A program made the translations under genes and the position numbers. Source: Accumulibacter sp. (GTDB lineage Bacteria; Pseudomonadota; Gammaproteobacteria; Burkholderiales; Rhodocyclaceae). From it: DNA of 64,000 bases. This document shows, in pieces, positions 6,340-64,000 of the stretch (position 1 is its first letter; every line of letters begins with the position of its first letter). The stretch is taken from contig NZ_JAMTDQ010000006.1 of assembly GCF_023806635.1 (NCBI RefSeq), positions 62,001-126,000 on the forward strand, written 5' to 3'. The notes below the pieces were generated by a model. The model searched no databases. It was not told the DNA's origin and saw only the letters and a list, made by a program, of their open reading frames with translations.

Positions 6340-7461
6340 TCAGCCGTTCGGCCGCCCTGTCGCCGGCGGGCGAGGCACCGTCGCGGGAGACCTGCCGACC
6401 TCGCGCGGCACCTCGTTGATCCAGGCCTCGAGCAGCGTGTAGGCGACCGCCAGGACGACCGGGCCGACGAAGAGACCGACCAGTCCGAAGGCCAGCATGC
6501 CGCCGATGACCCCGGCGAGGATCAGCAGCAGCGGCAGGTCGGCTCCCTGGCGGATCAGGACCGGACGCAGGAAGTTGTCCATGGTGCCGACGAAAATCGT
6601 CCATACCAGGAGGAAGCTGCCCCAGCCGGTCTGGTCGCCCCAGTACAGCCAGACCACGGCCGGCGCCAGGACCAGTGTCGGACCGAGCTGCGCGATGCAG
6701 AACATGAACATCACCGCCGTCAGTACCGGCGCGAACGGCACACCGGCGATGGCCAGGCCGATACCGCCGAGCAGCGACTGGACGATGGCGGTGACGCCAA
6801 CGCCGAGGGCGACCGCACGCGCCGCCTGGCCGGCGAGGATGACCGCACCCTCGCCGCGTTCACCGGCGAGGCGATAGCCGAAGCGGCGAACACCCCTGGC
6901 CGCCTTCTCGCCCGAAGCGTAGAGGACGGCAGCGAGGGCAACGGTGAGCAGGAACTGCACGAAGACCAGTCCGAAACTGCCGATCTCGCTGACGAACCAG
7001 CGCGTCAGGTTGCCGGCGTAGGGCGCGACCTTGCCTGCCAGCTCGGCGGTGCCGGTCGCGGCGACCTGCCGCCACGCGTGCTCGAGCCGCCCGCCGAGCA
7101 ACGGCACCTCGCCGACCCATTCCGGTGGCGACTGCGGCACGCGCAGTCCGCTCAGCGCCTTGCCCCATTCGGCGATCTGGTCGGCGTTGTCAACGATGGT
7201 GGCGATGGCCACCGACAGCGGCACGACCAGGCCAAGGAGAACCAGGAAGGTCATCAGGATCACCGCCGGCAGACGACGATTGCCGAAGCATTGCTGCGCG
7301 CGGAGCAGCAGCGGCCATGAGGCGACGACGACCATCGTCGCCCAGATCAGCGCTGGCAGGAATGGCTGCAGGATCCACAGCGATGCCGCGATGAGGACGC
7401 AAAGGAAGAGCACCGCCAGGGTCGGCCGGGCCATTTCGAAAGGCCTGTCGGGGGAGTTCAT
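6340..7461 (-). CDS. AI-2E family transporter (TqsA/YdiK-like permease)
   Basis: A polytopic membrane protein of 373 residues from the ATG at 7461. It shows the PF01594 layout: two or three helices, a long amphipathic stretch, then a block of about five helices with a PFAPVLTAVMFMF region and a C-terminal FVGPVVLAVAYTLLEAW helix. Family members export quorum signals or act as Na+(H+)/solute antiporters; many have no known substrate. The frame is open to a GTG at 7527, but that extension is charged and the hydrophobic start fits 7461 better. It lies downstream of a separate operon and 61 bases before ribE, so read-through into ribE is possible. Confidence 0.85.
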   Translation of the reverse strand: MNSPDRPFEMARPTLAVLFLCVLIAASLWILQPFLPALIWATMVVVASWPLLLRAQQCFGNRRLPAVILMTFLVLLGLVVPLSVAIATIVDNADQIAEWGKALSGLRVPQSPPEWVGEVPLLGGRLEHAWRQVAATGTAELAGKVAPYAGNLTRWFVSEIGSFGLVFVQFLLTVALAAVLYASGEKAARGVRRFGYRLAGERGEGAVILAGQAARAVALGVGVTAIVQSLLGGIGLAIAGVPFAPVLTAVMFMFCIAQLGPTLVLAPAVVWLYWGDQTGWGSFLLVWTIFVGTMDNFLRPVLIRQGADLPLLLILAGVIGGMLAFGLVGLFVGPVVLAVAYTLLEAWINEVPREVGRSPATVPRPPATGRPNG

Positions 7462-7625
7462 CAGTGGTTCATCCAGGTTCTCGCCATCGTTGTCGGCGCG
7501 CTTGGCGCGCCGGGGCGGCAACGCCACCGCGCCGGCACAGGGCGCATGGTAGCCGATTTCACCGTCGCGATGTCTGCCACCCCAGCCCCTTCGCCGCCGG
7601 CACGACGCCGATGGGACGCCCCGGA

Positions 7626-8069
7626 TCAGGACCTGACGCCGGCGACCGGTGCCGCCAGCACCCGGCGCAAGCCGCGCAGCAGCATGCCGACGACGGGAAG
7701 CTTCATGTAGAGTTCCTCGGCCGCGTCCCAGTAGTCGCGGTGGTGACTGACCTTGCCGGCGGCGTCGAAGCGCAGGTGGGAAACGCCGCGGATGATCTGC
7801 GTCCTGCCGCCGCCCCAGCGCGCAGCCCGGAAGCTGAAGGTCCAGACCAGCATGGCGCCGCCTTCATCGGCCACCCTTTCGCTGACGACGAAGCGCGGCT
7901 CGCCGACCTGCTCGAACATGTGGGCGAAGATGCGCTGGATCGCGGCGACCCCACGCACCTCGTTGAACGGGTCCTTGAAGCAGGCATCGGCGCTGTAGAA
8001 CTCGGGAAAGCGGGCGACGCTTTCCGGCGTCAGGCCGTGGAAGAATTCGATCAGCTCATCCAGGTTCAT
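7626..8069 (-). CDS. NTF2-like (SnoaL/DUF4440 type) protein, last gene of lipid-stress operon
   Basis: A 147-residue protein with the cone-shaped NTF2 fold pattern: N-terminal helices with FHGLTPESVARFPEFY, then a sheet with CFKDPFNEVRG and a C-terminal HHRDYWDAAEELY segment. NTF2-like proteins of this type are found with the DUF3833/DUF1365/CFA set in many proteobacteria; some relatives are isomerases or small-ligand binding proteins. Its start is one base after the SDR stop codon, so translation is coupled. Function unknown; possibly it shields or isomerises a lipid intermediate. Confidence 0.8.
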   Translation of the reverse strand: MNLDELIEFFHGLTPESVARFPEFYSADACFKDPFNEVRGVAAIQRIFAHMFEQVGEPRFVVSERVADEGGAMLVWTFSFRAARWGGGRTQIIRGVSHLRFDAAGKVSHHRDYWDAAEELYMKLPVVGMLLRGLRRVLAAPVAGVRS

Positions 8070-8070
8070 C

Positions 8071-8826
8071 TCAACTTCCGGTCAGGCGACGGACGAGGGG
8101 AAAATACCAGCGGTAGGGCAGCAGCGCGAGCAACTTCATGATGCGGGTGAAGCGCCGCGGGTAATGGATCTCGAAGCTGCCCGCCCGCCAGCCTTCGACG
8201 GTGGCGAGCGCCGCCTCCTCGGGCGTCAGCAGAGCCGGCATGGCGAAATCGTTCCGCGCGGTGAGCTGCGTCGCAACGAAGCCGGGATTGACGAGCCAGA
8301 CGCCTATCCCCTGTGGCGCGAGATCGAGGTGCAGGCATTCGGCGAAGTGGATCAGCGCCGCCTTGCCCGGCCCGTAGGCCAGCGCCCTGGGCAGGCCGCG
8401 GTAGCCGGCGACGCTGGCGACGAAGGCGATGCCGCCGCCGGCCCGCAGGTCGGGCAGCACGGTCGCCGCCAGGCGCATGGCGCCGTTGAAGTTGACGCTG
8501 ACGATCCTTTCGGCGGCCGCCAGGTCGAAGTCCGCGGTGCGCATCGGCACGTAGTCTCCGGCCAGGTAGATCACCAGGTCGACGCCGCGCCACGCCGCCA
8601 GCAGGCTCGCGCGGGCAGCCGCCAGGCTGGCGCTGTCGGTGGCGTCGCAGGGCAGCAGCAGCGCGCCGTCGATGCCGAGCGCGCGCAGCCGGTCGGCGCT
8701 GCGCGCGGAGAGCGCGACGCGCGCGCCGCGCCGCGCCAGCTCGCCTGCCAGCGCGGCGCCGATCCCGCTCGACGCGCCGACCAGCCAGACGCGCCTGCCG
8801 CACCAGTCGGTGATCTTTGGGTTCAT
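8071..8826 (-). CDS. Short-chain dehydrogenase/reductase
   Basis: A 251-residue classical SDR. The nucleotide-binding motif is VGASSGIG near residue 15, the catalytic serine lies in the FVASVAGYRG strand, and YGPGK supplies the YxxxK pair. The start ATG at 8826 overlaps the DUF3833 stop by four bases, which fixes the start; an upstream in-frame extension is not needed. It probably reduces or oxidises a carbonyl on the lipid or chromophore handled by this operon. Substrate is not known. Confidence 0.85.
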   Translation of the reverse strand: MNPKITDWCGRRVWLVGASSGIGAALAGELARRGARVALSARSADRLRALGIDGALLLPCDATDSASLAAARASLLAAWRGVDLVIYLAGDYVPMRTADFDLAAAERIVSVNFNGAMRLAATVLPDLRAGGGIAFVASVAGYRGLPRALAYGPGKAALIHFAECLHLDLAPQGIGVWLVNPGFVATQLTARNDFAMPALLTPEEAALATVEGWRAGSFEIHYPRRFTRIMKLLALLPYRWYFPLVRRLTGS

Positions 8827-9344
8827 CGCTTGACGAAGGTGAGCGTGACTTCGCCGAGATCGAAGCCCCACTTGCTCATGTAGGAGCGGTTCAGCATCAC
8901 CTTGTCGTCCATCAGGAACATCCAGTCGTCGAAATCGACGTGGTACACCGTGCCGTCGACCGGCAGCGCCAGCACGTAGCGCCAGCGCAGTGCATTGCCG
9001 GCCACCTCGCCGATCGCCTCGCCGACGACGTCATCGGCCGTGCCGCGGAAGCTGCCGTCGGCCTGTTTCGTCAGGGTCCAGACGCGGTGCGAGGTGCTGC
9101 CGTCCGACCAGCTGAAGCGCTCGTCGAGGATGCCGGTATCGCCGGTCCATCTGGCGTCGATGACGACGTGGAAGCGCTTCTGGACGTCGCCACGCCGCCC
9201 CTGGAAGATGCCCCAGGCGTCGAGGGTGCCGTTCAGGTAGGCCTTGAGGTCGAGGACCGGCTGTTCGGCACGGTACTGTTCGACTCCCGGCGAGGCGCAG
9301 GCGGTCAGACCGAGGGTGAAGGCGGCGGCGATGAGAAGCTTCAT
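8823..9344 (-). CDS. DUF3833 family lipoprotein
   Basis: A 173-residue protein with a lipoprotein signal peptide ending in the lipobox LTAC, so it should be lipid-anchored, probably in the periplasm. The body matches DUF3833: the LDLKAYLNGTLDAWGIFQ segment and the C-terminal DDWMFLMDDKVMLNRSYMSKWG block are very conserved in this family. It has no biochemically proven role but is a regular member of gene sets with DUF1365, CFA-like methyltransferase and SDR genes. Its start follows the MFS stop by one base and its stop overlaps the SDR start. Confidence 0.88.
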   Translation of the reverse strand: MKLLIAAAFTLGLTACASPGVEQYRAEQPVLDLKAYLNGTLDAWGIFQGRRGDVQKRFHVVIDARWTGDTGILDERFSWSDGSTSHRVWTLTKQADGSFRGTADDVVGEAIGEVAGNALRWRYVLALPVDGTVYHVDFDDWMFLMDDKVMLNRSYMSKWGFDLGEVTLTFVKR

Positions 9345-9345
9345 T

Positions 9346-10563
9346 TCAGATCTCCAGGGAATGACGCCAGCGCCAGAGCAGCGCTGCGGCCAGCGCCTTG
9401 AAGGCCAGCGGCAACAGGGCGTAGGCGAAGGTCAGCGAGGACAGGCCGTCGCCACCGCCCGGCACGTAGCCGAGCAGGGCGAGGAGCGGCAGCGCCAGCC
9501 CGGCGGCCAGAGCCAGGTTGAGTTTGGCGATGAAGTTCCAGACGCCGAAGCACGCCCCGGCCTGCCCCTGACGCTCGCCGAGGTCGGCGGCGATGGCGGC
9601 GGGCAGGGCCAGGTCGGCACCCAGCGCCAGTCCGGAAGCGACGCAGATCGCCGCGAATGGCCACAGGTCGCCGGCGCCGAGAAGGCTGGCGCCAGCGAAG
9701 GCGATGATCGACAGGCCCATCGCCGCCAGCCAGGCAACCACCCGCCCGCAGCACGCCGCCAGTCTGACCCAGAGCGGCAGCGAGGCGGCGCCGGCGACGA
9801 AGTACGACGCCAGCAACGGGCCGCTCGCCCGCTCCAGTTGCAGCACGTCGGCGACGAAGAAGAGGAACAGCGTCGCCGGCAGGGCGGCGGCGACGCCGTT
9901 GGCGATGAAGACGCCGAGCAGACGGCGAAAGGCACGGTCGCCGAGGATCAGACGCAGGCTCGGCAGCAGCGGCTGTCGCGGCGCGTGCACCGGCTGGCCG
10001 GCGCCGACCCGGCTGAAGGTCGTGGCAGCGGCGAGCAGCAGCAGCGGCGGCAGGATCCATGAGAGGCGCCTGATCCCCTCGCCGAGGTCGCTGGCGAGCA
10101 GCGCCGGCAGGGCGGCGGCGAGGACGACGCCAAGCAGCCCGAAGCCCTCGCGGGCGGCGGTCAATCGCGTGCGCTGCGCGGAATTGGCGCCGACGTCGGC
10201 GCCCCATGCCTGGTAGGCAACCGATGCGGCCGAGAAACCAAGGTAGGTCAGCGCCAGCGAGCCCGCCAGCCAGAGCGCCGCGTGGTCGATCGGCGGGTTG
10301 AGCAGGGCGACGAAGCCGGCCGCAAAGGGCACGAGGGCCAGCGCGACCATGGTCGGGCGCGGCACGCGATCGGCGAGCCAGCCCAGCCACGGGTCGATGC
10401 CGGCGTCGAGCAGCCGCGTGCCGAGCAGGATGGCGCCGAGCAGCGCGAGTTCCAGACCGGCCACCTCGGCGTAGAGGCGCGGCACGTGGACGTAGATCGG
10501 CAGCGCCGCGAAGGCCAGTGGCAGACCGAGGAGGCCGTAGGCGAGCGTGTGGCCGGCGTTCAT
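9346..10563 (-). CDS. MFS transporter of the GPH (MelB-like) type
   Basis: A 405-residue carrier with about 12 membrane helices. The loop GIDPWLGWLADR after helix 2 resembles the D-P-x-x-G-x-x-x-D-R signature of glycoside-pentoside-hexuronide cation symporters. The start lies four bases after the stop of the chalcone-isomerase-like gene. In related gene sets a GPH-type carrier is common and may move a lipid precursor or sugar-like head group; that is inference. Confidence 0.8.
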   Translation of the reverse strand: MNAGHTLAYGLLGLPLAFAALPIYVHVPRLYAEVAGLELALLGAILLGTRLLDAGIDPWLGWLADRVPRPTMVALALVPFAAGFVALLNPPIDHAALWLAGSLALTYLGFSAASVAYQAWGADVGANSAQRTRLTAAREGFGLLGVVLAAALPALLASDLGEGIRRLSWILPPLLLLAAATTFSRVGAGQPVHAPRQPLLPSLRLILGDRAFRRLLGVFIANGVAAALPATLFLFFVADVLQLERASGPLLASYFVAGAASLPLWVRLAACCGRVVAWLAAMGLSIIAFAGASLLGAGDLWPFAAICVASGLALGADLALPAAIAADLGERQGQAGACFGVWNFIAKLNLALAAGLALPLLALLGYVPGGGDGLSSLTFAYALLPLAFKALAAALLWRWRHSLEI

Positions 10564-10567
10564 CGCC

Positions 10568-11110
10568 TTACGATTCCAGGCGCGTCAGCAGCGCGGCGCG
10601 CAGGTCGGGAGCGCTGGTTCCGGCATCGAGCCAGATGGCGAAAAAGGCCCGGGCAAAGGCGGGGTCATCGATCGAGCCGATGCTGCGGTCGTTGAAGTAG
10701 AAGCGCGCCGCCTCGGGCAGCTGCACGCCGACGATACGGTCGCCGCGCCGGACATCGGGAAAGATCGCGAGCATCCGCTCGCCCCACGCGCGCAGGCGGG
10801 CCTCGCCGGCAACGCCGAGTTTGCGCATCTCACCGATGCTGGCGTCGGCGATATCGCGGCCCTTGATGGTCCGCTTGTAGGTCAGCTCGAGCGCCAGCGG
10901 CGGCTGCAGCGGATCGTCGCCGCTGGCCCACAGCGTCGCCGCGTAAATCAGCAAGCCGAAGCGGCGGAACTCGCCGCTTCCCCAGCGCCGCAGGCCGGTG
11001 GTCGGTGCCGCGGTCGCCGTTCCGGTCATCGCCAGCCCTGCCAGCGGCGATGCGGCCAGCGCCAGCAACAGGCGGCGCCTATTGATGAGCAAGTTCGAAC
11101 TGGACGACAT
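10568..11110 (-). CDS. Chalcone-isomerase-like protein with Tat-type signal
   Basis: A 180-residue protein. Residues 1-33 form an export signal with a twin-arginine-like INRRRLLLALAAS core and a cleavage region before the mature part. The rest fits the Chalcone_3 group (PF16036): FGLLIYAATLWASG, then LELTYKRTIKGRDIA, and FYFNDRSIGSIDDPAFARAFF. Bacterial members bind fatty acids rather than flavonoids in the cases known. The start at 11110 has GGGAG five bases upstream and overlaps the methyltransferase gene by 32 bases. A fatty-acid-binding or isomerising role outside the cytoplasm is likely. Confidence 0.8.
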   Translation of the reverse strand: MSSSSNLLINRRRLLLALAASPLAGLAMTGTATAAPTTGLRRWGSGEFRRFGLLIYAATLWASGDDPLQPPLALELTYKRTIKGRDIADASIGEMRKLGVAGEARLRAWGERMLAIFPDVRRGDRIVGVQLPEAARFYFNDRSIGSIDDPAFARAFFAIWLDAGTSAPDLRAALLTRLES

Positions 11111-12263
11111 CGATGCTCCCGGCGAGGAAGCCCGCCTCGCAGTAAGAGAGATAAAGACGCCAGAGGCGCCGGAACTGCTCGTCAAAACCGAGCGCGGCGA
11201 TCTGCGGCCAGTTGGCTTCGAAGGCGCGGCGCCATTCGCCCAGGGTGCGCGCGTAGTCGGCGCCGAAAGCGTATTCGCCGTGCACCGCCAGCCCCTGCCT
11301 CGCCGCGGCGGCACGGAAGGCCGGGCGCGACGGCAGCATGCCGCCCGGGAAGACGTATTGCTGGATGAAGTCGGTTCCCTTGCGGTAGTCGGCGAACAGG
11401 TCGTCGCGGATGGTGATGCTCTGGATCACCGCCCGGCCGCCCGGCTTCAGCGCCCGAGCAACCGAACGGAAGTAGGTCGGCCACCAGCGCTCGCCGACGG
11501 CCTCGAACATCTCGATCGAAACGACGTGGTCGAACTGCCCGCAGGTATCGCGGTAGTCCTGCAGCCGGAGATCGGCTCGTGGCACCCGCTGTCGTGCCCA
11601 TTCGAGCTGTGCCGGCGACAGGGTCAGTCCGGTGACCTGCAGTCCTGCCGCGACCGCGATCTCGGCGAAGCCGCCCCAGCCGCAGCCGATTTCGAGGACG
11701 CTCTGCCCCGGTCCGGCCTGCAGGCGGCGCAGGATGCGGCGGTACTTGGCGCGCTGGGCGCCTTCCAGGTCGCCGCAGTCGGTCGCGGGGTAGATGGCCG
11801 CCGAATAGCTCATGCCGGGATCGAGCCACAGCCGGTAGAAGTCGTTGCCAAGATCGTAGTGGGCCATGATGTTGCGCTTGCTGCCGGACCGGCTGTTGCC
11901 GTTCAGCCAGTGGCGCACGCGCGCCGCGAGCAGGTTGCGCCACGAACCGTACACCGCCTTGCGCAGGGCGTCGCGATTGCGCGCCAGCAGTGCCAGCAGG
12001 CCGGCGACGTCGGGCGAATCCCAGTGGCCGTCGAGATAGGCTTCGGCCAGGCCGATGTCACCGCGCGCCAGAACCTGCCCGAACATCGCTTCGTCATGCA
12101 CCTGCAGGGTGACGCCGTGATCGCCCGCGCCATACAGGCGGCAAGACCCGTCGGGCAGGCGAACCTCGAGAATGCCGCCGGCAATCCGCTCGAGGAGCGC
12201 GAGAACGCGGGAGGTGGCTGGCGCCGGGCCTTGGCCGCTGCGCAGGATCATCGTCTCATTCAT
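11079..12263 (-). CDS. CFA-synthase-like SAM-dependent fatty acid methyltransferase (non-canonical active site)
   Basis: A 394-residue protein of the Mycolic_acid_cyclopropane-synthase family. The SAM-binding motif VLEIGCGWGGFAE is at residues 189-201, and FIQQYVFPGGMLPS at 299-312 is typical. Compared with E. coli Cfa from memory, E239 and Y317 are kept (E254, Y337), but the bicarbonate-coordinating C139 is Ala155 (in SYSAAIY) and H266 is Gln281 (in IQSIT). Those residues are essential in classical cyclopropane synthases, so this enzyme may methylate unsaturated acyl chains without ring closure, as UfaM does on the way to furan fatty acids. The start overlaps the DUF1365 stop by four bases. 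Confidence 0.88.
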   Translation of the reverse strand: MNETMILRSGQGPAPATSRVLALLERIAGGILEVRLPDGSCRLYGAGDHGVTLQVHDEAMFGQVLARGDIGLAEAYLDGHWDSPDVAGLLALLARNRDALRKAVYGSWRNLLAARVRHWLNGNSRSGSKRNIMAHYDLGNDFYRLWLDPGMSYSAAIYPATDCGDLEGAQRAKYRRILRRLQAGPGQSVLEIGCGWGGFAEIAVAAGLQVTGLTLSPAQLEWARQRVPRADLRLQDYRDTCGQFDHVVSIEMFEAVGERWWPTYFRSVARALKPGGRAVIQSITIRDDLFADYRKGTDFIQQYVFPGGMLPSRPAFRAAAARQGLAVHGEYAFGADYARTLGEWRRAFEANWPQIAALGFDEQFRRLWRLYLSYCEAGFLAGSIDVVQFELAHQ

Positions 12264-13033
12264 TTGGTTGATTCCTGAAGGGGTTGCCGTTGATCGGAAG
12301 GACGCGCGCCAAAGAAGGGCACGCCCTTGATCCAGAGCCGGAGCGCCTGCCAGTGGATGCGGAGGACGACGCCGGCGGTCAGCAGCGGCATGCGCAACAG
12401 GGTGCCGAGCAGGGCGCGGGTGGACCAGGTCGTCGGTCTGCCGGTGATCGAGGTCAGCAGCAGGGCACCGGCGGTGTCGTCGTAGTCGATGCGGACCAGC
12501 GGACGCTCACGCTCGACAAGGAAGCGGAAGCGGTAGCCGCCTGTCACTTCGCAGAACGGCGAAACGTGGAAGGTCTTGCTCGCCCTGACCGTCTGCGCCG
12601 CGCTTAGCGGAGCGCCGTCGGCGTTGTGCAGCAGGTAGCAGTGGCGACCGCCAAAGGTATTGCTGACTTCGGCGAGGACGGCGAGCAGTTCGCCGTCGCG
12701 GTTGCGGCAGAACCAGAAGCTGACCGGATTGAAGACGAAGCCGAACACCCGCGGGAAGCACTGCAGGACGACCTCTCCGTCATCGGGCAGGCCGCGGCTG
12801 CGCAACTGCGACTGGATCCAGGGCAGCAGCGGCGAACCATCGCGTGGCCCGTGGTCCCTCTGGTGGAAACTGAGCAGATTGAAGCGATCGACCGAGAAGA
12901 GTGGCCCGCTGGCCGCCGCCAGGTCGGCCAGCGGCAACTGGACGAAAAAGACCGGGTAGGTGAAGGCATTGACCACCGGGCGCAGACGGCGGTGCATCAC
13001 TTGGCCGATCAGCAGTCGAGGACGGGCAGGCAT
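12260..13033 (-). CDS. DUF1365 family protein
   Basis: A 257-residue protein matching DUF1365 over its whole length: GQVMHRRLRPVVNAFTYPVFF near the start, an FGFVFNPVSFWFCRN block, an EVSNTFGGRHCYLL segment and a KTFHVSPFCEVTGGYRFRF stretch. The ATG at 13033 follows the amine oxidase stop by seven bases and has GAGG upstream; the frame stays open further upstream only as a shadow. DUF1365 proteins nearly always accompany the FAD oxidase and CFA-like methyltransferase; no reaction is established. A short hydrophobic C-terminal segment suggests membrane association. Confidence 0.9.
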   Translation of the reverse strand: MPARPRLLIGQVMHRRLRPVVNAFTYPVFFVQLPLADLAAASGPLFSVDRFNLLSFHQRDHGPRDGSPLLPWIQSQLRSRGLPDDGEVVLQCFPRVFGFVFNPVSFWFCRNRDGELLAVLAEVSNTFGGRHCYLLHNADGAPLSAAQTVRASKTFHVSPFCEVTGGYRFRFLVERERPLVRIDYDDTAGALLLTSITGRPTTWSTRALLGTLLRMPLLTAGVVLRIHWQALRLWIKGVPFFGARPSDQRQPLQESTK

Positions 13034-13040
13034 GTCGGCC

Positions 13041-14351
13041 TCAGGCGCTCGCCCGTGCGCGGACGCGCCGCGCGCCCTCGCCCTGCCACGGAGCGGCGAT
13101 GCCCATGGCGTTGGCGACGCGCAGGGCCGACTTGAGGCCGTCTTCGTGGAACCCGTAGCTGCCCCAGGCGCCAGCGAGCCAGATGCCGCCCTCACCCTGC
13201 ACCTCGGCGAGTCGCTGCTGCGCGGCGATGGCCGGGCCGTCGAAGATCGGGTGGGCGTAGTCGAATTCGGCGATGACCCGGGCCGGATCGGGCGCGCGCA
13301 CCGGATTGAGGGTGACGACGACCGGCGTCGCGAAGGGCAACGGCTGCAGGCGGTTGATCAGGTAGGAAACCGCCACCGGCTGCTCGCCCGGCGTGCCGCT
13401 GCCGGCACTGTAGTTCCACGCCGACCACAATTTTTCGTCGCGCGGCAGGAGGGCTCGGTCGGTGTGCAGGACGGCACGGTTGGGCTGGTAGCGGATCGCC
13501 GCCAGCACTTCGCGCTGCGCCTCGCTGGCGGTGCCGCCGAGAATGGCTCGCGCCTGGTCGCTGTGGCAGGCCATCACGACCCTGTCGAAGCGCTCGACGC
13601 CGCCGGCGTGGGTCAGGCGCAGTCCCTCGCCATCGCGGCTCACCGTGCTCACCGGGCAGGCGAGGCGGACGTCGTCGAGCTGTTGCGCGATGCGGCGCAC
13701 GTACTCGCGGCCGCCACCCCTGACGGTACGCCACAGGGGGCGGTCGAAGACCTGCAGCAGGCCGTGGTTGCGGCAGAAGCGGACGAAGGTGGCGAGCGGC
13801 GTATCGAGCATCTGCCCGGTCGGGCAGGACCAGATCGCTGCGGCCATCGGCAACAGGTACCATTCGGAGAATGCCGCGGAGTAGCCACCCGCGCCCAGGA
13901 AGTCACGCAGGCTGCGCTGGTCGTCGGGGTACGCGTGCAGCCACGCGACGGCCTCGCGGTTGAAGCGCAGGATGTCGGACAACATGGCCCAGAACTGCGG
14001 GCGCACCAGGTTGCGCTTCTGCCCGAAGATGGTGGCGAGGTTGCTGCCCGACCATTCGATGTCCGGGTCCTCCAGGCTGACCGCGAACGACATCTCGGTC
14101 TCGACGCTGTCCACCCCGAGCAGCGCGAAGAGCGCGATCAGGTTGGGATAGGTCTTGTCATTGAAGACGAGGAAGCCGGTATCGACCGGATGCGTCCTGC
14201 CTTCAAGGGTGACGTCGACGGTGTTGGTGTGACCACCGAGATGGCTGCCGGCCTCGAACAGGGTCACCGCGTGCCGGCGGCCAAGCAGCCAGGCTGCGGC
14301 GAGACCGGAGATGCCGGCGCCGACGACGGCGATTCGTTGCGTGTCGCGCAT
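13041..14351 (-). CDS. FAD-dependent amine-oxidase-like protein (fatty acid desaturase candidate)
   Basis: A 436-residue flavoprotein. The dinucleotide-binding motif VVGAGISGLAAAWLL starts near residue 9, followed by the EAGSHLGGHTNTV second FAD motif typical of NAD(P)-binding amine oxidases (PF13450/PF01593). The C-terminal IWLAGAWGSYGFHEDGLKSA closes the FAD site. Relatives always occur with DUF1365 and a CFA-like methyltransferase; in Rhodobacter a flavoprotein of this type (UfaD) dehydrogenates a methylated acyl chain during furan fatty acid synthesis. The same role here is inferred from family and context. Confidence 0.85.
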   Translation of the reverse strand: MRDTQRIAVVGAGISGLAAAWLLGRRHAVTLFEAGSHLGGHTNTVDVTLEGRTHPVDTGFLVFNDKTYPNLIALFALLGVDSVETEMSFAVSLEDPDIEWSGSNLATIFGQKRNLVRPQFWAMLSDILRFNREAVAWLHAYPDDQRSLRDFLGAGGYSAAFSEWYLLPMAAAIWSCPTGQMLDTPLATFVRFCRNHGLLQVFDRPLWRTVRGGGREYVRRIAQQLDDVRLACPVSTVSRDGEGLRLTHAGGVERFDRVVMACHSDQARAILGGTASEAQREVLAAIRYQPNRAVLHTDRALLPRDEKLWSAWNYSAGSGTPGEQPVAVSYLINRLQPLPFATPVVVTLNPVRAPDPARVIAEFDYAHPIFDGPAIAAQQRLAEVQGEGGIWLAGAWGSYGFHEDGLKSALRVANAMGIAAPWQGEGARRVRARASA

Positions 14352-14360
14352 GACCGTCTC

Positions 14361-15161
14361 CTACGCGTTGGCGCCGAAGAGTTCAGCGTAGGCCGAATGG
14401 TTGTGGATCGACTCGAAGTTCTCCGAGGCGACCTTCCATTCGGCGATGCGTGGCTCGCCCATCAGACGCAGCGCGATGTCGCGCACCAGATCCTCGACGA
14501 ACTTCGGGTTGTCGTAGGCGCGTTCGGTCACCCACTTTTCGTCGGGGCGCTTGAGCAGGCCGAAGACTTCGCACGACGCCTCTTCCTCGGCCACGCGGAC
14601 GAGTTCCTCGATGGTCATGGGCGAGCGCAGTTTCGCTTCCAGCGTGAGGTGCGAGCGCTGGTTGTGCGCTCCGTAGTCGGAGATCTTCTTCGAGCAGGGG
14701 CAGAGACTGGTCACCGCCGCCGTCACGCGCAGCGTCAGCGCTGCGGGCTGCCCGTGCGGCCGGTCGATGAGCAGCGTCGCGTCGTAGTCGAGCAGGCTTT
14801 CGACGCCCGACACCGGCGCCGTCTTGCGGATGAAGTAGGGAAAGCTCATCTCGATGCGGCCGCTCGTCGCGTCGAGGCGCAGCAGCATGTCCGCGAGCAA
14901 CGCGAACAGGCCCTCCTGCGTCAGCGCGCCGCTGCGACCCTCGAGGAGTTCGACGAAGCGCGACATGTGGGTACCCTTGACCTCGGGCGGCAAGCCGACG
15001 GTCATCGTCAGGCTGGCCACGGTGTTCATGATCTCGCCACTGGCGGTCTGGATCTGCAACGGGTAGCGCAGCCCCTTGACGCCGACGTTCTGGATCGCCA
15101 GTCGGCGGCCATCGGCGGCCGACTGGACGTCGGGCAGGAAGAAGTGTTCTGGTGCGTTCAT
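14361..15161 (-). CDS. folE2: GTP cyclohydrolase IB (FolE2)
   Basis: A 266-residue protein of the FolE2 (COG1469) family. The catalytic cysteine lies in the SLCPCSK motif (C154), followed by [13 protein letters not shown] and the conserved [30 protein letters not shown] type block near the C-terminus. It opens GTP to 7,8-dihydroneopterin triphosphate, the first step to folates and other pterins, and unlike FolE it does not need zinc. It sits second in the operon, 33 bases after the peroxidase and 9 bases before the FAD oxidase. Its presence here links pterin supply to the light or oxidative response. Confidence 0.93.
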
Positions 15162-15194
15162 TACAATCTCTCCATGTGGGTGGGGGCGGTCGAG

Positions 15195-15752
15195 CTACTT
15201 GAGGAACTCGTCGATCTTCTGCAGCAGCTCGCGGTCATCCGGCCTGGTCGCGCTGGCGTAGGCGACGACCCGCGAGGCATCGCGGTTGATCAGGTACTTG
15301 TGGAAATTCCAGCGCGGCTTGCTGCCGGTGGTTTCCGCCAGCATGCGGTAGAAGGCATTGGCGTTGCCGCCACTGACCGTCGTCCTGGCGAACATCGGGA
15401 AATCGACGCCGTCGGTCAGGCGGCAGAACTCTGCGATCTCCCTGTTGCTGCCGGGCTCCTGCTCGCCGAAGTCGTTGGACGGGAAGCCGAGGACGACCAG
15501 CCCCTTGTCCTTCAGCCGCTCATGGAGCTTCTCCAGCCCGTCGTACTGCGAGGTAAAGCCGCAGAAGCTCGCCGTATTGACCACCAGGATGACCTTGCCG
15601 GCGTACTGGCAGAGTGGCACCGGCTTGCCATCCTGCAGAGCGGGAAACGTGTGGTTGAGCAAGGGCGGGCAAGCGCTGGCGGACGACGGCGCGACGATCC
15701 CCAGCGTCAGCAGGGCGGCGACCAGCGTGGAACGTTTCCAGTCAGTGACCAT
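15195..15752 (-). CDS. Periplasmic glutathione peroxidase-like protein
   Basis: A 185-residue protein with an N-terminal signal peptide of about 27 residues. The catalytic cysteine is C64 in NTASFCGFTSQYDGLE; the FPSNDFGEQEPG segment supplies the conserved glutamine and WNFHKYLI the tryptophan. It is a cysteine-type thiol peroxidase of the GPx family, reducing lipid or hydrogen peroxides, here outside the cytoplasm. It is the first gene of the ten-gene operon and lies downstream of a good promoter (TTGACA, 17, TACATT), divergent from the B12-type MerR gene. An envelope-located peroxidase fits a defence against lipid peroxidation. Confidence 0.88.
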   Translation of the reverse strand: MVTDWKRSTLVAALLTLGIVAPSSASACPPLLNHTFPALQDGKPVPLCQYAGKVILVVNTASFCGFTSQYDGLEKLHERLKDKGLVVLGFPSNDFGEQEPGSNREIAEFCRLTDGVDFPMFARTTVSGGNANAFYRMLAETTGSKPRWNFHKYLINRDASRVVAYASATRPDDRELLQKIDEFLK

Positions 15753-15770
15753 GCCGAACCTTTCTTCCCT

Positions 15771-15857
15771 TTGTCCTGGACATTTTCGTCATTTGTCGCT
15801 AATGTACGCGCCGAAGTTCCCAGTGTCAACAGTTTGTCTAACTTTTGTTCAGGACAA
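15771..15857. promoter_or_regulatory. Divergent control region with gpx-operon promoter and palindromic operators
   Basis: On the minus strand TTGACA (15824-15829) and TACATT (15801-15806) are 17 bases apart, a near-consensus promoter for the ten-gene operon. TGTCCTGGACA (15772-15782) is a perfect palindrome around one base; TGTTCAGGACA (15846-15856) is the same element with one mismatch and overlaps the ribosome binding site of the MerR gene. Further TTGTC half-sites start at 15793 and 15834. Starts of the four half-sites (15771, 15793, 15834, 15845) are 22, 41 and 11 bases apart. I infer these are the binding sites of the divergent MerR/CarH-type regulator, giving autoregulation and control of the operon. 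Confidence 0.65.
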
Positions 15858-15859
15858 TT

Positions 15860-16768
15860 ATGATCAATCCCGGCTTCAACATTGCTGCCGTCGAACGCGA
15901 TACGGGTCTGTCCAAGGATGTCCTGCGCGTCTGGGAGCGGCGCTACGGCTTTCCCGCCCCTGCCCGCGACGACCATGGCGAGCGCATCTATCCGGCGGAT
16001 CAGGTGGAGCGTCTGCGCTTGGTGAAGCGCCTGATGGATGCCGGGCACCGGCCGGGCAAGCTGCTGGCCACCCCCAGCGAGGAACTGAACGCGCTGGCGC
16101 CGCGGCGTCCGCAACCGGCGCTGGCGGTCGCCGGCGCCAGCGCCGGCGAGGAACTCGGTGACCTGATTTCGCTGATCAAGCGGCATGACGGCGCCGCCTA
16201 TCAGGAGGCGATGCAGCAGCGATTGGCGCGCCAGGGGCTGGTGCGTTTTGTCCAGGACACCGTTGCTCCGCTCACCCGCCTCGTCGGCGCAGCCTGGGAG
16301 GAAGGCCGCATCGAGGTATTCGAGGAGCACCTGTTCACCGAACTGACCATGCGCCTCCTGCGCCAGGTGATCGGCAGCCTGCCCGGAGGCAGGCGAAGCC
16401 CGCGGATCATTCTCACCAGCGTCCCGGACGAACTGCACGGCCTCGGACTGCTGATGGCCGAGGCCCTGTTCGCGCTCGAAGGTGCCGAATGCATTCCGCT
16501 TGGCACGCAGATGCCACTGCTTGAAATCGCCAGTGCCGCCGGCGCCCACCGCGCCGACATCGTCACCCTGTCGTTCTCGGTCGCCTTCCCGCAACGCCAG
16601 ATCCCCGGACTGCTGCAGCAGTTGCGCGCGCTCCTGCCCACCGCAGTGGGACTGTGGGCCGGCGGCGGCGGCGTCAGGCGCCTGCCCGAGGTGGCGGGCG
16701 TCGAACTTCTCGCTTCACTCGAACAGTCCATCGACGCGTTGGCAGCGTGGCGAGGGAAACAGACCTGA
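15860..16768 (+). CDS. MerR-family B12-binding photoreceptor-type regulator (CarH/LitR-like)
   Basis: A 302-residue regulator. Residues 1-65 form a MerR winged helix (VLRVWERRYGFPAP). Residues about 100-175 are a four-helix cap with W146 followed nine residues later by E156-H157, the W-x9-EH signature of light-sensing CarH proteins. Residues about 180-295 form a Rossmann-like cobalamin domain with ELHGLG, an E-x-H-x-x-G motif whose H193 should ligate cobalt. In the CarH/LitR family, adenosylcobalamin-bound tetramers repress in the dark and light breaks the complex. The ATG at 15860 has AGGA five bases upstream. It is divergent from the operon it presumably controls. Confidence 0.85.
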   Translation: MINPGFNIAAVERDTGLSKDVLRVWERRYGFPAPARDDHGERIYPADQVERLRLVKRLMDAGHRPGKLLATPSEELNALAPRRPQPALAVAGASAGEELGDLISLIKRHDGAAYQEAMQQRLARQGLVRFVQDTVAPLTRLVGAAWEEGRIEVFEEHLFTELTMRLLRQVIGSLPGGRRSPRIILTSVPDELHGLGLLMAEALFALEGAECIPLGTQMPLLEIASAAGAHRADIVTLSFSVAFPQRQIPGLLQQLRALLPTAVGLWAGGGGVRRLPEVAGVELLASLEQSIDALAAWRGKQT

Positions 16769-17098
16769 ACCGCCCCGCGCCGGACGGGGACTGCCGGACT
16801 GTTGAGCATCCGGCAGGCGCTTCGGCCGCGTCCGTGCCTGGCGCGCCAGGAAGCAGATCTCGCGGAATCGGTCGCTTGCCTGGCGGACGCCTCCCCCGCC
16901 GGCCGACGGCATCGCCTTGCGCCCACCGCTGGCGCATGCGCATAGAATGCCGGGCATGCCCCCTTCTCCGATCGCCCACGAACGACGTCGCCCGCGCATG
17001 CGCAGCACCAGCCGCTGCCTGCCGGCGGCGGCACGGACGCGGGGCGCGACGGCGCGCCGTCGTCGCAGCTGTCGGCGCGCTGCGCCGGCCGGCGGAAG
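16769..17098. other. Intergenic stretch upstream of the aminopropyltransferase gene
   Basis: These 330 bases hold no recognisable gene. TAGAAT at 16943-16948 could be a -10 box for the downstream gene, with a poorly spaced TTGCGC upstream. I see no terminator hairpin with a U-run after the MerR gene. Confidence 0.4.
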
Positions 17099-18598
17099 AT
17101 GAAACGGGCGCTGCTCCTCTCGGTCTTCGTCATCGCCTCCTGCGGGCTGGCGTATGAACTGATCGCCGCGACGCTCGCCAGCTACCTGCTCGGCGATTCG
17201 GTGACGCAGTTTTCGACGGTCATCGGCAGCTACCTCTTCGCCATGGGCGTCGGCTCGTGGCTGTCGCGCTACGTCGGCGAGCAGCTCGTCCAGCGCTTCA
17301 TCCAGGTCGAGCTGCTGGTCGGCGTGCTCGGCGGCTTCTCGGCAGCCCTGCTGTTCTTCTCCTTCACCTGGTCGCCGGCGCCCTTCCAGCTGCTGCTCTA
17401 CCTCGTCGTCTTCGCCGTCGGGGTGCTCGTCGGCCTCGAGATCCCGCTGGTCATGCGCATCCTCAAGCGGGACCTGGCGTTCCGCGAGCTCGTCTCGCAG
17501 GTGCTCACCTTCGACTATCTCGGTGCGCTCGCGGTATCGATCCTCTTCCCGATCCTTCTCGTGCCACACCTCGGGCTGATCCGCAGCGCGCTGCTCTTCG
17601 GCGTCCTCAACGTCGGCGTGGCGCTCTGGACGTGGTGGCTGTTCCGCGAACAGTTGCCGAACGCCGGCTGGCTGCGGGCGCAGGGCGGCTTCGCGCTGCT
17701 CTCGCTGCTGACGGCGTTCGCCGCCGCCGGCGAACTGACGACGCTCGCCGAAAGCCAGCTCTATGCCGACGAGATCGTCTACAGCGAGAGCACGCCGTAT
17801 CAACGCATCGTCCTGACGCGCTGGAAGGATGATCTGCGCCTGCACCTGAACAACAACCTGCAGTTCAGCTCGCGCGACGAGTACCGCTACCATGAGGCGC
17901 TGGTGCACCCGGGCCTGGCGACCCTGCCGTCGGCGCGGCGCGTGCTCGTCCTTGGCGGTGGCGACGGGCTGGCGGCACGCGAGATCCTCAAGTACCCGCA
18001 GGTCGAAAGCATCGTCCTCGTCGACCTCGACCCGGCGATGACGCGCCTGTTCGCCAGCGCGCCGCCACTGCGCAGACTCAACCAGGACGCGCTGAACTCG
18101 CCGCGCGTGCGGGTGATCAATGCCGATGCGCTGCAGTGGCTGGAGGAGAACGACGAAAGCTTCGATTTCGTCGTCGTCGACTTCCCCGACCCGTCCAACT
18201 TCTCGCTTGGCAAGCTGTACAGCGCTTCGTTCTACCGCCTGCTCGACCGGCACCTGGCAGCGAACGGGCTGGCGGTCATCCAGTCCACCTCGCCGCTGTA
18301 CGCCCGCCGCTCGTTCTGGTGCGTCGTCACGACACTGGAAAGCGTCGGCCTGCTGGCAACGCCCTACCATGCGCTGGTCCCCTCGTTCGGCGAGTGGGGC
18401 TTCGTCATCGCCGGTCGCCGCCCGTACCGGCCGCCGCAATCCTACGACGTCGACACCCGTTTCCTGACGCGCGAGACGACGCCGGCACTGTTCGTCTTTC
18501 CGCGCGACATGGAGCGTGTCGATGCCGAGGTCAACCGCCTCAACAACCAGGTCCTGGTGCGCTACTTCGAGCAGGAGTGGCGGCAGGTGATCCGTTAG
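17099..18598 (+). CDS. Membrane-anchored spermidine-synthase-like protein
   Basis: A 499-residue fusion of a membrane domain and a spermidine/spermine synthase fold. Residues 1-225 hold about seven membrane helices, starting with CGLAYELIAATLASYLLG. The soluble part carries the SAM-type motif VLVLGGGDGLAAREI near residue 281, VDLDPAM, NADALQW and DFPDPSNFSLGKLYS, which matches the aminopropyltransferase active site. Such proteins are annotated as polyamine aminopropyltransferases, but the membrane fusion and the partner gene suggest a specialised role. The FAD oxidoreductase gene follows after four bases. Substrate unknown; aminopropyl transfer is inferred. Confidence 0.82.
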   Translation: MKRALLLSVFVIASCGLAYELIAATLASYLLGDSVTQFSTVIGSYLFAMGVGSWLSRYVGEQLVQRFIQVELLVGVLGGFSAALLFFSFTWSPAPFQLLLYLVVFAVGVLVGLEIPLVMRILKRDLAFRELVSQVLTFDYLGALAVSILFPILLVPHLGLIRSALLFGVLNVGVALWTWWLFREQLPNAGWLRAQGGFALLSLLTAFAAAGELTTLAESQLYADEIVYSESTPYQRIVLTRWKDDLRLHLNNNLQFSSRDEYRYHEALVHPGLATLPSARRVLVLGGGDGLAAREILKYPQVESIVLVDLDPAMTRLFASAPPLRRLNQDALNSPRVRVINADALQWLEENDESFDFVVVDFPDPSNFSLGKLYSASFYRLLDRHLAANGLAVIQSTSPLYARRSFWCVVTTLESVGLLATPYHALVPSFGEWGFVIAGRRPYRPPQSYDVDTRFLTRETTPALFVFPRDMERVDAEVNRLNNQVLVRYFEQEWRQVIR

Positions 18599-63661: not shown

Positions 63662-64000
63662 GGGTGGGAAGTCGGTCGATAAGCCGGGTTCTGTCGTGGA
63701 CAGCCATTCATCTAGGCGTACTGTCACCAGCACGCTCAAGCAGCCTACCCGGAAGCAGCGCGAGCCACGCCCATGCTTCCCTATTTGGCCTTGCTCCGGA
63801 TGGGGTTTGCCGTGCCGTCCGTGTTGCCACGTCCGCGGTGAGCTCTTACCTCACCGTTTCACCCTTACCTGCCCCGGTCTGCACCGGGACATCGGCGGTC
63901 TGCTTTCTGTTGCACTTTCCGTCACCTCGCGGTGCCCGGTCGTTAACCGGCATCGTGCTCTGTGGAGCCCGGACTTTCCTCTCGGCGCCAGGTTTGCACC
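63662..64000 (-). ncRNA. rnpB: RNase P RNA (class A), 5' end outside the window
   Basis: On the minus strand the sequence contains the conserved core GAGGAAAGTCCGGGCTCC near the right edge, followed by the GGTTAAC and GGTAAG regions, and ends with ACAGAACCCGGCTTATCG, the 3' strand of the catalytic core. These are invariant blocks of bacterial type A RNase P RNA, the ribozyme that trims the 5' leader of tRNAs. About 340 nt are present; some 50-70 nt of the 5' end lie beyond 64000. The 3' end is estimated from the E. coli pattern. Confidence 0.93.

Follow-up and report, generated by a model that had tools for sequence, protein, structure and literature searches.

A conserved ten-gene operon of lipid genes in Accumulibacter, its CarH-like regulator and a predicted pair of phased operators

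In a window of 64,000 nucleotides from Accumulibacter sp. (contig NZ_JAMTDQ010000006.1, positions 62,001 to 126,000, part of a 4.47-Mb assembly in 119 contigs), ten minus-strand genes lie divergent from a gene for a MerR-type regulator that resembles the B12 photoregulator CarH. The ten-gene block is a real and conserved unit that appears to be specifically regulated. The cassette of lipid genes in it is itself known, being the UfaM-UfaO-UfaD and accessory set of the RpoE-ChrR singlet-oxygen regulon, and a similar set is reported to be under light control by class II LitR in Pseudomonas (PMC7074977, PMC7380195, PMC9758184). What appears to be new is the regulatory anatomy, the strongest element of which is a phased operator pair tied to a branch of CarH-like proteins without the His132 of Thermus CarH (TtCarH). 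Gene content, order, conservation, the operator pair, its spacing, the residues and the predicted folds were computed directly.

The block is probably a repressor circuit of the CarH type that defends the membrane against photo-oxidation, with furan-lipid synthesis as part of its output. In the dark, a regulator oligomer loaded with adenosylcobalamin (AdoCbl) would occupy two palindromes from the same side of the helix, spanning a sigma-70 promoter, and would block transcription both of the operon and of the regulator's own leader. Light, or a shortage of AdoCbl, would release the regulator, and all ten genes would be made. UfaM, UfaD and UfaO would convert cis-vaccenoyl chains to a methyl-furan acyl chain, an exported peroxidase would remove lipid hydroperoxides and FolE2 would supply pterin, while transport or binding of the modified lipids probably falls to a GPH carrier, a chalcone-isomerase-fold protein and a lipocalin-like lipoprotein. 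It is the binding of AdoCbl, release by light, the lipid product and the handling of lipids that we infer here.

Paired operators at the operon promoter

Comparison of intergenic regions revealed a 13-bp palindrome, TTGTCCWGGACAA, which occurs twice between the regulator gene and the operon. The features of this region are as follows.

15860..16768, plus strand: carH-like MerR regulator with B12-binding domains (W146, E147, E156-H157, H193); MerR_1 4.4e-13, B12-binding_2 5.3e-7, TtCarH 1.5e-26
15845..15857, no strand: predicted operator 1, TTGTCCTGAACAA on the minus strand, directly upstream of the -35 element and of the carH ATG
15801..15829, minus strand: sigma-70-type promoter TTGACA-N17-TACATT, between the two operators
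15771..15783, no strand: predicted operator 2, minus-strand reading ATGTCCAGGACAA; it lies downstream of the -10 element, 74 bp from operator 1

The promoter is the sole promoter-like site within 7400-17200, where 0.4 would be expected. The two-site pattern has a single match in the 4.47-Mb genome, at the operon promoter, and is matched in 20 of the 61 genomes examined (own genome, G000, included), while the reversed pattern is matched in none. A hand count found two sites 60-77 bp apart in 30 of 41 promoter regions, against a background, in 751,660 bases, of 0.027 single sites per kb. A second, wider set of loci consists of the best 80 of 579 from a scan with the FAD protein of the operon (hereafter the named loci); 22 of its 40 divergent loci have paired sites, and shuffled sequences give 0. 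A promoter-like match of at least 10/12 lies between sites 60-77 bp apart in 43 of 68 pairs, compared with 1 of 68 when shuffled.

Identical operator contexts were removed before counting, and the 92 adjacent-site spacings that remained fall mainly at 72-75 bp (45) and 62-64 bp (22), with 15 at 146-181 bp, six at 52, 85-86, 96 and 107 bp together, two at 32-33 bp and one each at 70 and 115 bp. The two main clusters correspond to seven and six helical turns, and the close pairs therefore step by about one turn. Single sites in the own genome show no excess at up to two mismatches (94, compared with 88 for the reversed pattern), so that it is the pair that carries the signal. The specific pairing of regulator and operator, which had no place in the preliminary description of this DNA, is supported by these sequence comparisons.

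A regulon extending over many loci of the own genome was considered and rejected: only four sites have at most one mismatch, three of them inside 490 bp at the operon promoter region and the fourth a lone site 5' of a gene on contig C43, with no partner. No operator site was found within the 11 kb examined around the photolyase on contig C85. One of the sites near the operon is a third operator-like palindrome with one mismatch, at 16248-16260 of the window, inside the regulator gene over its FVQDT codons. A one-mismatch site is also present inside the Azoarcus and Eleftheria regulator homologues; the intragenic palindrome may be an auxiliary site or a codon coincidence.

The pair also occurs where regulator and operon are separated. 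In six genomes of the same genus the regulator lies away from the operon (on a single contig in G010 and G015, on separate contigs in G006, G013, G023 and G025), and the operon regions of all six hold the pair. At the unlinked regulator a pair 73-75 bp apart is found in G006, G013, G015 and G023, so that four of the six genomes keep a pair at both places. In G015 the carH and operon promoters are about 163 kb apart, with a 74-bp pair at each. A named plasmid of Azoarcus sp. KH32C has a pair 74 bp apart, and a plasmid of Eleftheria terrae (L096:10406-11882) has a perfect pair 62 bp apart between a regulator homologue (65% identical) and a divergent fasciclin gene. Elsewhere in relatives paired sites precede a lipocalin gene (L092) and an SDR gene near a short LOV gene (L090, L094), and L094 also holds one gene of the EgtD family and one that is EgtB-like. 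The lipocalin, SDR/LOV, Egt and fasciclin genes fit a photo-oxidative theme. No pair was found at the Cupriavidus (TetR-type), Azospirillum (rpoE-chrR) or Rhizobium loci. In the relative G019 (L094:3149-6928) part of the operon occurs a second time, together with a fragment of the regulator and paired sites that are intact, and in G010 a remnant FAD gene stands beside carH (L077), with the operon elsewhere.

The operon and its conservation

The ten co-directed genes run from 15752 to 7626, in the order of transcription gpx-folE2-FAD-DUF1365-cfa-chi-GPH-DUF3833-SDR-NTF2, and the largest gap is 33 bases. All were located in the order, strand and tight packing previously claimed for them, and each belongs to a Pfam family above cut-off, the weakest score being that of Chalcone_3 (33.7 bits, cut-off 27). 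Starts were re-chosen for the SDR (8826), chalcone-isomerase-like (11110) and DUF1365 (13033) genes. With these, the gaps in order of transcription are 33, 9, 7, -4, -32, 4, 1, -4 and 1 bases, with overlap at three junctions.

15195..15752, minus strand: gpx, Cys-type glutathione peroxidase with an N-terminal signal (export judged by eye); GSHPx 2.4e-33, closest in the PDB yeast HYR1, 7.1e-38
14361..15161, minus strand: folE2, type I GTP cyclohydrolase; GCHY-1 1.6e-85, NCBIfam FolE2 above cut-off
13041..14351, minus strand: FAD protein of amine-oxidase type, probable UfaD (methyl-acyl desaturase); Amino_oxidase 1.7e-21, adjoins DUF1365 as in RSP1091-1090 and RPA2571-2570
12260..13033, minus strand: DUF1365 protein, probable UfaO (O2-dependent furan-forming step), UfaO being a DUF1365 protein; DUF1365 3.5e-78
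11079..12263, minus strand: CFA-like S-adenosylmethionine methyltransferase, probable UfaM; CMAS 2e-77, A155/Q281 for C139/H266 of E. coli Cfa
10568..11110, minus strand: exported protein of chalcone-isomerase fold with an Arg-rich signal (by eye); Chalcone_3 and structure comparison
9346..10563, minus strand: GPH/MFS_2 carrier; MFS_2 5e-45, melibiose carrier 7.2e-7
8823..9344, minus strand: DUF3833 lipoprotein (signal by eye), a ten-stranded barrel resembling lipocalin, nitrobindin and fatty-acid-binding proteins; DUF3833 Pfam, AlphaFold
8071..8826, minus strand: SDR oxidoreductase; adh_short 1.6e-35
7626..8069, minus strand: NTF2/SnoaL-like protein; SnoaL_2 6.8e-17

AlphaFold predicts a chalcone-isomerase/fatty-acid-binding fold for the chalcone-isomerase-like product, in agreement with structure comparison, and a lipocalin-like barrel for the DUF3833 product, which is predicted to be exported. 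This gives a functional hypothesis for DUF3833 and for bacterial chalcone-isomerase-like proteins, namely that they are exported lipid-binding folds.

Conservation was scored around DUF1365 matches, which occur in 42 genomes; without G000 and G057 these gave 40 loci, several of which stop at contig edges. In 28 of the 40, eight or more of the ten genes follow the same order (scored as ntf2-sdr-DUF3833-gph-chi-cfa-DUF1365-fad-folE2-gpx), and 13 have all ten. For the 80 named loci the corresponding numbers are 44 and 7. Given this conservation of order, the arrangement is not due to chance. Relatives share ancestry and the counts are not independent; G011 and L121 are one contig, and identical contexts were kept in the counts of gene order, of the 40 divergent loci and of methyltransferases.

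In a hand tally at E<=1e-20, 38 of the 61 genomes have both carH and DUF1365, four have DUF1365 alone (G029, G040, G049, G054), none has carH alone and 19 have neither. Among the named loci, 45 have a regulator at more than 80% coverage, divergent in 40 of them, and it is linked in Zoogloea, Thauera, Janthinobacterium, Caldimonas and Leptothrix, among others. These 80 loci contain gpx in 22 cases and folE2 in 16, and the regulator is present in all 11 that have both. A TetR-type gene is present in 14 and ChrR, sought with one Azospirillum query, in one, while 20 have no carH-like, TetR-type or ChrR gene. Five loci of the TetR type (L133, L135, L141, L147, L188) have an extra chalcone-isomerase-like gene 5' of the FAD gene.

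The AI-2E and riboflavin-synthase genes beyond ntf2 were rejected as members, as they adjoin ntf2 in only 1 of the 40 relatives' loci. The interval from ntf2 to AI-2E showed nothing resembling a terminator, so that transcription may read through.

The regulator and the signal it may sense

The regulator aligns with TtCarH over residues 6-296 (1.5e-26), and has the MerR helix-turn-helix, four-helix and Rossmann B12-binding domains that characterise CarH/LitR class I. That it carries both B12-binding domains is borne out by the Pfam B12-binding_2 match and by this alignment. The AdoCbl-contact residues W131, E141-H142 and H177 of TtCarH correspond to W146, E156-H157 and H193, and in 46 aligned regulators the Trp and Glu are present in all, H157 in 44 and H193 in 45 (matches shorter than about 200 residues were dropped from a 40-sequence set, and those at 80% coverage or less from this 46-sequence set). 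The residue numbers of the preliminary description are right if counted from the ATG at 15860; an alternative upstream TTG start, at 15845, falls within an operator. The genome also encodes a cobalamin adenosyltransferase.

Several observations weigh against the proposed repressor circuit. The Rossmann B12-binding model of Pfam scores 5e-6 and 26.8 bits, below its cut-off of 32.1, the NCBIfam CarH equivalog NF052513 reaches 112.5 bits where 400 are needed, and the published GxxH motif reads DxxH. The equivalent of His132, which is the upper ligand of the TtCarH light state and is variable within the CarH/LitR family, is E147. No His occurs at this position in either aligned set, window included (0/40 and 0/46), and since the equivalent is absent in all aligned homologues, the light state of the regulator would differ from that of TtCarH. 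The operators have exceptions as well. The pair is absent from 11 of the 41 promoter regions and from 18 of the 40 named divergent loci; in 13 of these 18 one or more sites are present with no more than one mismatch, and in five there is none. The lack of excess of single sites noted above belongs here, as do the unlinked carH genes of G010 (spacing 86 bp) and G025 (only one site) and the second regulator homologue of G008 (no operator site). No cassette is found within the 11 kb examined around the Eleftheria terrae homologue, and in Comamonas endophytica a homologue and single sites occur with no cassette in the stretch examined. The argument from the CarH/LitR signature thus stands for the AdoCbl-contact residues, but it had overlooked the absence of the light-state ligand. 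Light control remains plausible through another light state, or the regulator may read AdoCbl status.

The latter, in which the regulator senses the level of AdoCbl and not light, repression tracks cobalamin status and a lack of AdoCbl, or its destruction by oxidants, turns the operon on, is in our judgement unlikely. The contacts to AdoCbl are kept while His132 is never His. His132 of TtCarH is described as critical for tetramer disassembly, and the H132A variant as showing minimal light-induced change (PMC10442372). On the other side, CtMerR, in which the residue is Arg, is reported to respond to light (PMC11796333), photo-oxidative regulons include this gene set (PMC7074977), and paired sites lie near a short LOV gene in two relatives, in one also near ergothioneine-type genes. 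A mutase-type B12 enzyme near unlinked carH genes speaks for sensing of AdoCbl: in L078, L079 and L080 a fused methylmalonyl-CoA-mutase-type enzyme is a few kb away (Pfam was run on L078 only). The activated-sludge habitat is dim, which speaks for it too. Still less probable, and the least likely of the alternatives, is that the effect of blue light is mediated by a separate short LOV protein, an antagonist of the regulator, in the manner of Pseudomonas mendocina, where PmSB-LOV is described as an anti-repressor of PmlR2 (PMC9758184). The own genome does have a short LOV homologue on contig C71, which carries the NCRFLQ motif and shares 79% identity with the L094 protein, but a close homologue (E<1e-70) occurs in only 8 of the 61 genomes, own included, compared with 38 for carH, and there is no site at up to two mismatches in 3.4 kb around the own gene. 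The window regulator, moreover, retains the Rossmann domain missing from class II LitR proteins, its C-terminal half aligning with that of TtCarH to residue 296. The LOV gene itself (G000:C71:44010-44435; L107:1486-1950) lies downstream of a Polyketide_cyc2-family gene.

More specific than the repressor circuit, and offered only tentatively, is a joint reading in which a betaproteobacterial branch of B12 photoregulators without the His132 switch would bridge two palindromes an integral number of turns apart, and the operon would make furan phospholipids together with an outer-membrane trafficking set, here the GPH carrier, the exported chalcone-isomerase-fold acyl-binding protein and the lipocalin-barrel lipoprotein. 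The paired sites offer a concrete candidate operator for a regulator of B12 type that has no textbook ligand switch.

Lipid product and comparison with known systems

The operon holds a CFA-like methylase, an FAD protein and a DUF1365 protein together, as in furan clusters, and their order fits both published Ufa clusters (R. sphaeroides and R. palustris). According to PMC7380195, UfaO belongs to the DUF1365 family, UfaD is an NAD/FAD protein, and the two together with UfaM are sufficient for the methyl-furan chain; UniProt entries Q3J4I7, Q3IYV7 and Q3IYV8 are given for UfaM, UfaD and UfaO in PMC10940516. From the gene content and order, Accumulibacter, the phosphate-removing organism of wastewater treatment, is predicted to have furan fatty acids. 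The three assignments are probable and rest on family and gene order, which counts against a firm reading, as does the reported dispensability of RSP1087-1089 for furan lipid synthesis.

That the methyltransferase makes cyclopropane and not methyl-furan chains, the operon being a cyclopropane or membrane-fluidity module, is quite improbable, though rather less so than LOV control. The enzyme is of the CMAS family, and cyclic fatty acids have been reported besides the 11-methyl product when Halomonas UfaM was overexpressed in E. coli. The bicarbonate site of canonical cyclopropane synthases (C139, E239, H266, Y317) reads A155, E254, Q281 and Y337 in the window. In 108 operon-type enzymes (matches at 60% coverage or less were dropped, and six of low identity kept apart) the C139 position is Ser or Ala (88/20), Ala replaces the His after E239 in all 108, and Gln replaces H266 in 107, with one gap; two non-operon homologues retain Cys, His and His. 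Cotton cyclopropane synthases are described as having Ser and Gln at the same positions (PMC3132707), which favours the cyclopropane product. To judge from the sequences, the changes set the operon-type enzymes apart from bacterial cyclopropane synthases, not from those of cotton. DUF1365 and the FAD protein adjoin the methyltransferase as in proven furan clusters, which argues for furan chains.

The link to the gene set of singlet-oxygen defence and furan fatty acids, drawn in the preliminary description, agrees with the published RpoE-ChrR (ECF11) regulon. For R. sphaeroides this is given as including rpoE, chrR, cfaS, phrA, RSP_1091 to RSP_1087, fasciclin (RSP_1409) and folE2, and in R. capsulatus gpx adjoins rpoE-chrR (PMC7074977). 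A gpx gene is also in the Shewanella RpoE2 regulon. Shared with the window are cfa/ufaM, RSP_1091-1087 (ufaD, ufaO, GPH, hypothetical, SDR), folE2 and gpx. The order fad-DUF1365-(cfa-chi)-GPH-DUF3833-SDR matches RSP1091-1087 (two fatty-acid proteins, GPH symporter, hypothetical, SDR), and fad-DUF1365-cfa matches R. palustris RPA2571-2569. In that regulon the genes are dispersed under an ECF sigma factor, whereas in the window they are gathered in a single unit, whose promoter is of the sigma-70 type and which is divergent from a CarH-like gene. Control by ChrR in the own genome was rejected: no ChrR above cut-off was found in the 61 genomes (weak matches in 35; own best 21.6 bits against 124.5), while the Caulobacter control was detected.

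According to PMC9758184, class II LitR proteins of Pseudomonas putida and P. mendocina place ufaM, FAD, SDR, phrB and fol genes under light control. These PplR/PmlR proteins are likewise MerR/LitR repressors, of a nine-gene polycistron with SDR, FAD protein and ufaM, and of a fol operon; as described there, they differ in having no B12 Rossmann domain, in their use of a short LOV protein, in their sites (TGTACA-N12-TGTACA) and in having phrB in the same region. Class I CarH/LitR (Thermus, Bacillus, Myxococcus) shares the MerR head, W-x9-EH and the axial His, and Myxococcus CarH represses a primary-sigma promoter, similar in type to that of the window. The operators of Thermus and Bacillus are tandem 11-bp direct repeats, in contrast to two 13-bp palindromes six or seven turns apart, and the window regulator differs from class I in lacking His132 and in having lipid genes, not carotenoid genes, as its predicted targets. 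A close arrangement is found in Azoarcus sp. KH32C (pAZKH, AZKH_RS25985-26025), where a MerR gene is divergent from FAD-DUF1365-CFA-CHI-MFS-DUF3833-SDR-NTF2 in the same order, though without gpx and folE2.

Searches of the open-licence PMC literature turned up no single unit of ten genes controlled by a regulator with B12 domains. The suggestion that gpx, folE2 and the lipid set are a little-described combination therefore stands for this unit, but not for the association of its parts with RpoE and, for ufaM and folE, with LitR, which had been published. The same cassette adjoins rpoE-chrR in Azospirillum lipoferum 4B and a TetR-type gene in Cupriavidus pinatubonensis, so that one lipid-defence cassette is found beside different local regulators, the CarH-like gene of the window being a third. 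The Cupriavidus regulator was considered as a class III LitR and rejected, its Pfam family being TetR_N. In Rhizobium johnstonii 3841 a related set, which includes folE and a lipocalin, lies near chrR. At the far end of the window, 63664-64000 encodes a class A RNase P RNA, cut off by the window end.

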